A DNA stretch of 64,000 nt from Halopiger xanaduensis SH-6 (lineage in GTDB: Archaea; Halobacteriota; Halobacteria; Halobacteriales; Natrialbaceae). Shown here piece after piece: positions 58,389 to 60,522 of this stretch. The notes under the pieces were generated by a model, which saw only the letters and a program-made list of their open reading frames with translations, was not told where the DNA came from and ran no database searches. The stretch lies in assembly GCF_000217715.1 (NCBI RefSeq), contig NC_015666.1, positions 1,438,270 to 1,502,269 on the forward strand, written 5' to 3'. Position numbers and translations under genes: made by a program. Every line of letters starts with the position of its first letter. Position 1 is the first letter of the stretch.

Positions 58389-58558
58389 CCGGCCGGAGCC
58401 GTCATCGCGCTGCGCCGTCGTTCGGTTTTCCGTGTCTTTTCGCTACCTATCGCACTTGAGAGCGCCAGCAGGTTTCTCAACCCGGTTCCCGGCCTACCGC
58501 CGGTACCTGTCGATCACTGGTGACGAGCGACGCCGGTGGGTCGACGCACTCAGCTAGC

Positions 58559-59638
58559 ATGTCGATGGCAAACTACGAACTCCACGACCGACTCGACCGC
58601 CTCTCTTCGGCCGAAGCCGACCGCGACGTCCTCGTGACGCTCGCCGTCCCGCCCGAGGACTCGATCGGCCAGGCCCGCCAGCCCGTCGAAACCGACTACG
58701 CCGAGGCGAGCCAGCTCGACGAGCAGTCGTTCCCGAAACCGCTGACCGACGCCCTCGAGACCGTCCGCAGCGAGCTGAACGACTACGAGGAGATTCCCGA
58801 GAACGGCCTCGCGATCTACGCCGGCGCCCCCGACGGCGACCTCGTGACGGCGGTCTTCGACGACCTCCCGATGGCGATCGACGAGTCGATCTACGAGCAC
58901 GGCAACGAGTTCGACCTCTCGCCGCTCGAGGACGTCGCCGAACCCGACTCGACCTCCGGACTGCTCGTCGTCGAGCGCGGCGGCGCCGCCCTCGGCCGGC
59001 TCGACGAGACCGGCGTCAAACCGATCGATACCTTCGACAGCGACGTTCCGGGCAAGTCCAGCGCCGGCGGTCAGTCCGCCGAGCGGTTCGAACGCGACCG
59101 CGAGCGACAGAAACGCGAGTTCTTCGACGAGGTTGCCGAGCGCGCCGCCCTCGAGTTCCTCGAGAGCGACCCGGTCGACGGCGTGCTGCTGGGCGGCACA
59201 ACCGGCACGGTCGAGGACTTCCGCGAGGAAGCGGACCTCGATCACCGGCTCGAGGACCGCCTCGTCGGCGAGTTCGCCGTCGAGTACGCCAGCGAGCAGG
59301 GCCTTCGCCAACTCGCGGAGAAGGGTCGATCAGCAGTCGACGAACGCGACCGGCGCGACGCCCGCGAGGCCCTCGAGGACTTCTTCGAGGCGGTCCGGGA
59401 CGACGACCGGGCCGTCGCCTACGGGACCGACGAGGTCGACGACGCGCTCGAGTACGACGCCGTGGACACGCTGTTGCTCTCGGCCGCGCTCGAGGGCCAG
59501 CAACTCCGGACGTTCGGCGACCGCGCGACGGAACAGGGCGGCGACACGGTCGTCGTCCCCGACGATTTTCCGGACGGAAACCGCTTCGCCGAGGCGTTCG
59601 ACGGCGTCGGCGCGCTGTTGCGGTTCGCGATCGACTGA
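58559..59638 (+). CDS. Vms1/Ankzf1-type peptidyl-tRNA hydrolase (aRF1 paralogue)
   Basis: This 359-residue protein has the archaeal/eukaryotic release-factor fold. The N-terminal domain (1-125) aligns with aRF1, but the stop-codon-reading NIKS motif is absent; the equivalent segment reads ASQLDEQSF. The middle domain keeps the catalytic GGQ in PGKSSAGGQSAERF (residues 170-172). The C-terminal domain has VLLGGTTGTVEDFRE. Such proteins cleave peptidyl-tRNA on stalled large subunits in quality control (Vms1 in yeast). ATG 58559 is used; a second ATG at 58565 is equally possible. The gene stands alone. Confidence 0.88.
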   Translation: MSMANYELHDRLDRLSSAEADRDVLVTLAVPPEDSIGQARQPVETDYAEASQLDEQSFPKPLTDALETVRSELNDYEEIPENGLAIYAGAPDGDLVTAVFDDLPMAIDESIYEHGNEFDLSPLEDVAEPDSTSGLLVVERGGAALGRLDETGVKPIDTFDSDVPGKSSAGGQSAERFERDRERQKREFFDEVAERAALEFLESDPVDGVLLGGTTGTVEDFREEADLDHRLEDRLVGEFAVEYASEQGLRQLAEKGRSAVDERDRRDAREALEDFFEAVRDDDRAVAYGTDEVDDALEYDAVDTLLLSAALEGQQLRTFGDRATEQGGDTVVVPDDFPDGNRFAEAFDGVGALLRFAID

Positions 59639-59883: not shown

Positions 59884-60522
59884 TCAGTCCGCGGTCTGCT
59901 GACAGTCGCAGCCGCCCTGATCGAACAGGTCCTGCACCGTGTACTGGGTCTTGCACTCCTCGCAGGTCACCGTCACGTTGACGAGCACGTTGAACTCCCC
60001 GATGTCGAGGACGTCGCCCCGCTCGAGTTGGGCGATCGTATCCTCGGTGACGGCCGAGGTCCGGTTCCGAAGCGCGCCGAGCTTGTCCCGGCTCCGCTCG
60101 AGGCGCTCCTCGTCGCTCGGGGTCTCGAGCGAGGCCTCGAGACAGTCCGTCAGGTGGTTGTAAACGGTCTGGTGAGAGATGAAATCGCTCTCGACGTCCT
60201 CGATCGGGACGGCGTCGCGCTCGAGTTCCTTGCGCGTCTGGACGCGCGTCCCGCTGCTGACGTCGTCGCTCGTGAGCAGCCGGTAGGTGTTCTCGACTTC
60301 GCCGTCCTTGTACTGGAGGCCGGCTTCGTCGAGGGCCGCCGCGAGCACGCGCTGGTTGACGTGCTCCGCGAGGTCGCGGGTGCTGTAGCGATCCTCCGTC
60401 CGGTCGGTCCAGTAGCGGACGAGCTCGTCGTCGAGTCCCTCGAGGGCGTACTGGTCGGCGATACGTCCGACCTTACAGCCGCACGGCTCGCTGGTGCGGT
60501 CGTCTGGCTTCGTGTCGGTCAC
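59884..60522 (-). CDS. rdfA: Rod-determining factor RdfA family protein
   Basis: This 212-residue acidic protein resembles haloarchaeal RdfA, which is needed for rod-cell formation. Recognisable family parts are CGCKVGRIADQYALEGLDDELVRYW, VENTYRLLTSDDVSSGTRVQ, and the C-terminal VTVTCEECKTQYTVQDLFDQGGCDC, which could bind zinc through four or more cysteines. The start is a GTG at 60522. CTACCG words around the start (60522-60537) and CGGTAG at 60563-60568 may be regulatory. RdfA paralogues are numerous in Natrialbales; which one this is cannot be told. Genes on both sides are unrelated. Confidence 0.85.
   Translation of the reverse strand: MTDTKPDDRTSEPCGCKVGRIADQYALEGLDDELVRYWTDRTEDRYSTRDLAEHVNQRVLAAALDEAGLQYKDGEVENTYRLLTSDDVSSGTRVQTRKELERDAVPIEDVESDFISHQTVYNHLTDCLEASLETPSDEERLERSRDKLGALRNRTSAVTEDTIAQLERGDVLDIGEFNVLVNVTVTCEECKTQYTVQDLFDQGGCDCQQTAD

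Follow-up and report, generated by a model that had tools for sequence, protein, structure and literature searches.

Canonical aRF1 and eRF1 (TIGR03676; structures 4af1 and 3agk) are three-domain proteins with a GGQ-bearing M domain and a Pelota-like C domain. Pelota/Dom34, which reads no codons, carries an Sm-like N domain and no GGQ. Burroughs and Aravind (PMC6514570) characterise the archaeal VLRF-1 proteins (aVLRF-1), which belong to the Vms1 clade, by a GGxSQ loop, a coiled coil at the N terminus and the absence of a Pelota domain. The Balon paper (PMC10901736) and the archaeal HibA paper (PMC13324472) present aRF1 relatives devoid of both NIKS and GGQ; the passages of the latter on potential archaeal Balon report it from Methanosarcinia, Syntropharchaeia and Thermoplasmatota and do not name the class Halobacteria. 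In the openly searchable literature we found no characterised factor for codon-independent peptide release in archaea, and openly accessible articles, to which the search was confined, yielded no description of the haloarchaeal paralogue family presented here.

Domain architecture of the window paralogue

The window, a stretch of 64,000 nucleotides from Halopiger xanaduensis SH-6, encodes at 58559..59638 an aRF1 paralogue of 359 aa, whose ATG start is conserved among relatives and whose features all lie on the plus strand. HMMER searches against the PDB aligned residues 5-311 to Halobacterium aRF1 4af1 (E 4.9e-43) and, with phmmer, residues 5-358 to Aeropyrum aRF1 3agk. Since both alignments start at residue 5, the N (decoding) domain is present (residues 5-118, 58571..58912). 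It is followed by the M (peptidyl-tRNA hydrolase) domain (PF03464; residues ~133-262, 58955..59344) and by the Pelota/eL30-like C domain (PF03465; 59345..59635), which ends in ALLRFAID; the Pfam scores are 84 bits for eRF1_2 and 62.7 bits for eRF1_3. The protein is not a minimal, hydrolase-only one, as it has all three aRF1 domains and misses the zinc minidomain of the C domain alone. An AlphaFold2 run with ten close orthologues reached a mean pLDDT of 50.7 and a pTM of 0.35, with the N domain unmodelled. A shortened copy in another genome (L038, G036:C1:200514-201167) consists of the M and C domains only (residues 143-359) and is 74% identical to the window protein.

The initial annotation had described a release-factor paralogue with GGQ at residues 170-172 and a QLDE-like segment in place of NIKS, and all three points were borne out. 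GGQ is found at these residues (59066..59074), within the invariant loop VPGKSSAGGQ, the longest invariant stretch across ten orthologues. QLDE (residues 52-55, 58712..58723) faces the NIKS of 4af1, for EASNIKSKQT pairs with EASQLDEQSF in the HMMER alignment. The NCBIfam model TIGR03676 (aRF1_eRF1) matches the protein with 240.1 bits, barely above its cut-off of 234.7, and the gene is a paralogue, with a separate canonical aRF1 encoded in the same genome along with Pelota, NEMF and an archaeal Vms1-clade protein. The suggested equivalence to Vms1/ANKZF1, on the other hand, is not supported: the window protein is an aRF1 by the models, with GGQ and a Pelota-like C domain, and the genuine aVLRF-1 of this genome is another gene (G000:C3:980840-981799, minus strand; L140:1495-2454), whose 320-aa product has an N-terminal coiled coil and a KGGFSQ loop and scores 126.7 bits with acVLRF1.

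Membership of each described group was considered in turn. The loop of the window protein reads AGGQS, not GxxQ or GGxSQ, and the protein's scores with acVLRF1 (62.2 bits, below the 84 of eRF1_2) and NF041024 (61.9 against 125) are low, although the protein would share with aVLRF-1 the M-domain fold and a presumed codon-independent peptidyl-tRNA hydrolysis. With Pelota it has in common the C domain, the lack of codon reading and, in some relatives, an ABCE1 context, but it keeps GGQ, scores 64.9 against 177.65 with TIGR00111, and the Pelota of the genome is another gene. Like Balon it lacks NIKS, but again GGQ is present, and NF052289 gives 33.3 against 320. From the canonical factors, to which it is homologous over its full length, it differs by the missing stop-codon contacts, an acidic N domain, the absent zinc minidomain and its place as a second copy beside the canonical gene. 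On these sequence features, the window protein belongs by descent to the aRF1 family, but it is neither a stop-codon-reading class-1 release factor nor a VLRF-1, a Pelota or a Balon.

Stop-codon contacts and N-domain charge

Motifs were compared over 98 aligned homologues, with the stop-codon contacts located by canonical aRF1, and three states of the paralogue were distinguished: state A retains NIKS and GGQ and is often plasmid-borne, state B, to which the window gene belongs, has GGQ without NIKS, and state C has neither. In the window protein the losses extend beyond NIKS. RDV (residues 22-24, 58622..58630) stands at the position of the GTS/GTx loop, the E55 position is occupied by Asp, and YEHGNEF (residues 112-118, 58892..58912) takes the place of YxCxxxF, with the Cys lost and the Tyr and Phe kept. 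GTx, E55, NIKS and YxCxxxF are all conserved in the canonical aRF1s (42 rows) and in state A (11 rows), apart from N, S or A for the G of GTx in three rows and one HIRS for NIKS. State B (36 rows, including the window gene) has lost GTx and the Cys of YxCxxxF, carries Asp instead of E55 in 31 of 36 rows and an acidic residue at the NIKS lysine in nearly all, so that GTx, E55, NIKS and C127 are altered together in this state and retained in the canonical aRF1s and in state A. GGQ occurs in 36/36 state-B rows, a group defined by GGQ, and the surrounding loop is thus the informative part; it is the best conserved region of state B, with 80% mean identity versus 48-67% elsewhere. State C (8 rows, one subclade of 7 and one further gene) shares the losses of state B and is also devoid of GGQ and its basic loop (net charge +1.9 to -6.6).

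The N domain is also strongly acidic. Its net charge drops from a mean of -6.5 to one of about -20 in state B. The window protein, at about -22, compares with -5 for the canonical aRF1 and -8 for the Pelota of the same genome; stretches of equal length in four ordinary soluble neighbours have means of -8 to -14. From the acidic N domain and the lost motifs we infer a loss of contact with the mRNA and the decoding centre. Termination at stop codons through other residues, or with altered specificity, might be read into the Tyr and Phe of YxCxxxF, which persist in nearly all rows, and into state A, which keeps every decoding motif; with the NIKS lysine turned acidic, E55 replaced by Asp, GTx and Cys lost at the same time and a canonical aRF1 in the genome, we consider it highly improbable. 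The annotation in current use for plasmid-borne members is 'peptide chain release factor aRF-1'. With a score 5 bits above the cut-off of the same equivalog model, the window protein would be mislabelled, as it probably cannot terminate translation at stop codons.

Sequence comparison establishes the three-domain homology, an intact GGQ loop, the joint disappearance of the stop-codon contacts, the presence of a canonical aRF1 as a gene of its own and, in some relatives, linkage to ABCE1. Our preferred reading, with a probability of about 0.55, is that the window gene may encode a peptidyl-tRNA hydrolase that is blind to codons and serves ribosomes that have stalled or been split. The M domain would reach the peptidyl-transferase centre and hydrolyse peptidyl-tRNA through GGQ, and the N domain, no longer reading mRNA, would let the protein act where no stop codon directs it. 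Its predicted substrate would be either stalled 70S ribosomes whose A site is empty or 50S subunits holding peptidyl-tRNA after splitting by ABCE1/Pelota, with delivery by aEF1A or by no factor. The paralogue would probably be a ribosome-rescue factor whose evolution was independent of that of the known ones.

A narrower, Vms1-like role would confine the protein to 50S subunits after splitting, in an archaeal RQC pathway beside NEMF, where it would duplicate or back up aVLRF-1. Such a role would suit an N domain devoid of mRNA contacts and more acidic than that of Pelota, which enters the 30S subunit, and in this genome about 4 kb separates the NEMF/RqcH and Pelota genes, which share a strand (G000:C3:1759958-1766236). 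We nevertheless regard it as unlikely, as aVLRF-1 is already present in the genome and in 39/41 relatives, the paralogue still has the complete architecture of an aRF1, N and C domains included, and no linkage between paralogue and NEMF was seen. NEMF was also rejected as a dedicated partner, being found in 21/21 relatives, with and without the paralogue.

Distribution and descent of the paralogue

The paralogue occurs in 56 of the 243 sampled Halobacteriales genomes, with state A in 14, B in 35 and C in 8; two genomes combine A and B, and one holds a fragment without assignable state. A canonical aRF1 accompanies it in the genomes checked, except in G011, a draft genome that is 98% complete, where a compact state-A form (G011:C29, L066) is the sole aRF1 found. 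None of the other Halobacteriota families whose second matches were examined has a second copy of the window-protein type; the second TIGR03676 match of Methanosarcina was left out of the analysis because the window protein does not detect it. A phage or virus origin was sought among 50,697 phage records, with no match for the window paralogue. Only roughly one in four Halobacteriales carries the paralogue, whereas NEMF, aVLRF-1 and Pelota are near-universal or occur in its absence; it is therefore not a fixed part of a core pathway.

This patchiness, together with frameshifted copies in other haloarchaea (L067, L071, L073), could also be expected of a decaying or selfish remnant that derives from a plasmid-borne release factor and does nothing for the cell. 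The dN/dS of the window gene against nine relatives, however, is 0.22-0.31, so the gene is under purifying selection, and the catalytic loop is invariant across the window clade; we give the remnant hypothesis very little credence.

In an IQ-TREE run with the motif columns removed, all 43 paralogue rows form one clade (98/83), separate from the canonical aRF1s of the phylum. The root is set by a single distant outgroup. On this rooting, state A branches first (L066, L065 and then the plasmid clade), and B and C share a clade (100/98) within which state C lies nested (7 rows at 100/100, plus L060). From this order, codon reading was most plausibly lost once, before GGQ was. A single GGQ loss, weighed against two independent ones, was not rejected (AU p 0.30), nor was an origin by duplication of the haloarchaeal canonical aRF1 (AU p 0.16). 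The compact forms, free of the zinc minidomain, split into two groups in the tree, and the minidomain was therefore probably lost more than once. In families f22, f28 and f37 (G247, G257, G343 and relatives), it is the main canonical aRF1 that lacks this minidomain.

The family thus offers natural before-and-after pairs, with NIKS kept or lost and GGQ kept or lost, in culturable haloarchaea, and a comparison of close relatives could test how a release factor becomes a rescue factor.

ABCE1 linkage, plasmid toxins and the upstream palindrome

The neighbours of the window gene, an EamA transporter, an HVO_A0261-type HTH regulator and RdfA, are unrelated to translation. RdfA (rod-determining factor A; 59884-60522, minus strand, 254.5 bits) lies downstream of the paralogue, as it does in several relatives, and the gene beyond it, which we take from its sequence to be glycerate kinase-like, is equally unrelated. 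The initial annotation had called this a single-gene locus, which holds for the window clade and overlooks both the pairing with ABCE1 and the relatives on plasmids. Four genomes of family f12 (L058, L062, L063, L153) have ABCE1/Rli1 (933 bits) directly upstream of the B-type gene, on the same strand and with short gaps; a fifth contig ends at the ABCE1 position, one member of the family is without ABCE1, and the linkage is restricted to this family. ABCE1 is the ATPase that splits ribosomes whose A site is occupied by aRF1 or Pelota, and this adjacency is therefore the strongest contextual hint of function. It strengthens the rescue reading already put forward for this gene, which is plausible without its Vms1 component: a hydrolytic motif uncoupled from stop-codon reading would point to codon-independent release.

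The same linkage could be claimed for a non-hydrolytic occlusion or recycling factor, acting by Pelota-like splitting with ABCE1 or by Balon-like hibernation, in which the GGQ of the window gene would be a relic. GGQ and its basic loop have been lost in one subclade and one further gene, so hydrolysis would be dispensable for at least some derived role, and Balon likewise lacks NIKS and GGQ (PMC10901736). The conservation of GGQ and its loop throughout state B, over a long divergence, and hibernation-factor models that score far below their cut-offs on the window protein make this quite improbable for the window gene, for which we retain codon-blind hydrolysis.

The state-A gene was found on 13 plasmid records. 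In 8 of the 11 annotated ones (L074, L077, L146, L148, L150, L151, L152, L075), a toxin gene lies within 3.5 kb, with VapC or HEPN/MNT directly upstream and MazF or Doc 1-3 kb downstream; on Haloferax mediterranei pHME132, MazF is encoded about 1 kb from the state-A gene. Three 50-kb control stretches from such plasmids contain a total of 2 annotated toxins; given this small control and the relatedness of the loci, the association is suggestive only. It would fit the proposal that release-factor paralogues relieve toxin-jammed ribosomes (PMC6514570).

We tentatively entertain a broader scenario, in which aRF1 would have embarked anew on a route resembling the ancient one to Pelota, with every stage surviving today: a compact stop-codon reader on plasmids near ribosome-stalling toxins (A), a codon-blind chromosomal rescue hydrolase, tied to ABCE1 in one family and represented by the window gene (B), and a non-hydrolytic form (C).

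Upstream of the window gene lies a conserved, imperfect palindrome of 25 bp, TTGAGnnCGCCRGCAnnnnnCTCAA (58456..58480, plus strand). A search of the genome for a regulon sharing it found none, this copy being the only exact match. In most window-clade loci the palindrome is located 60-162 bp upstream of the start although the upstream genes differ, and its arms covary in L004 (TGAA/TTCA), making it a possible operator or leader element.
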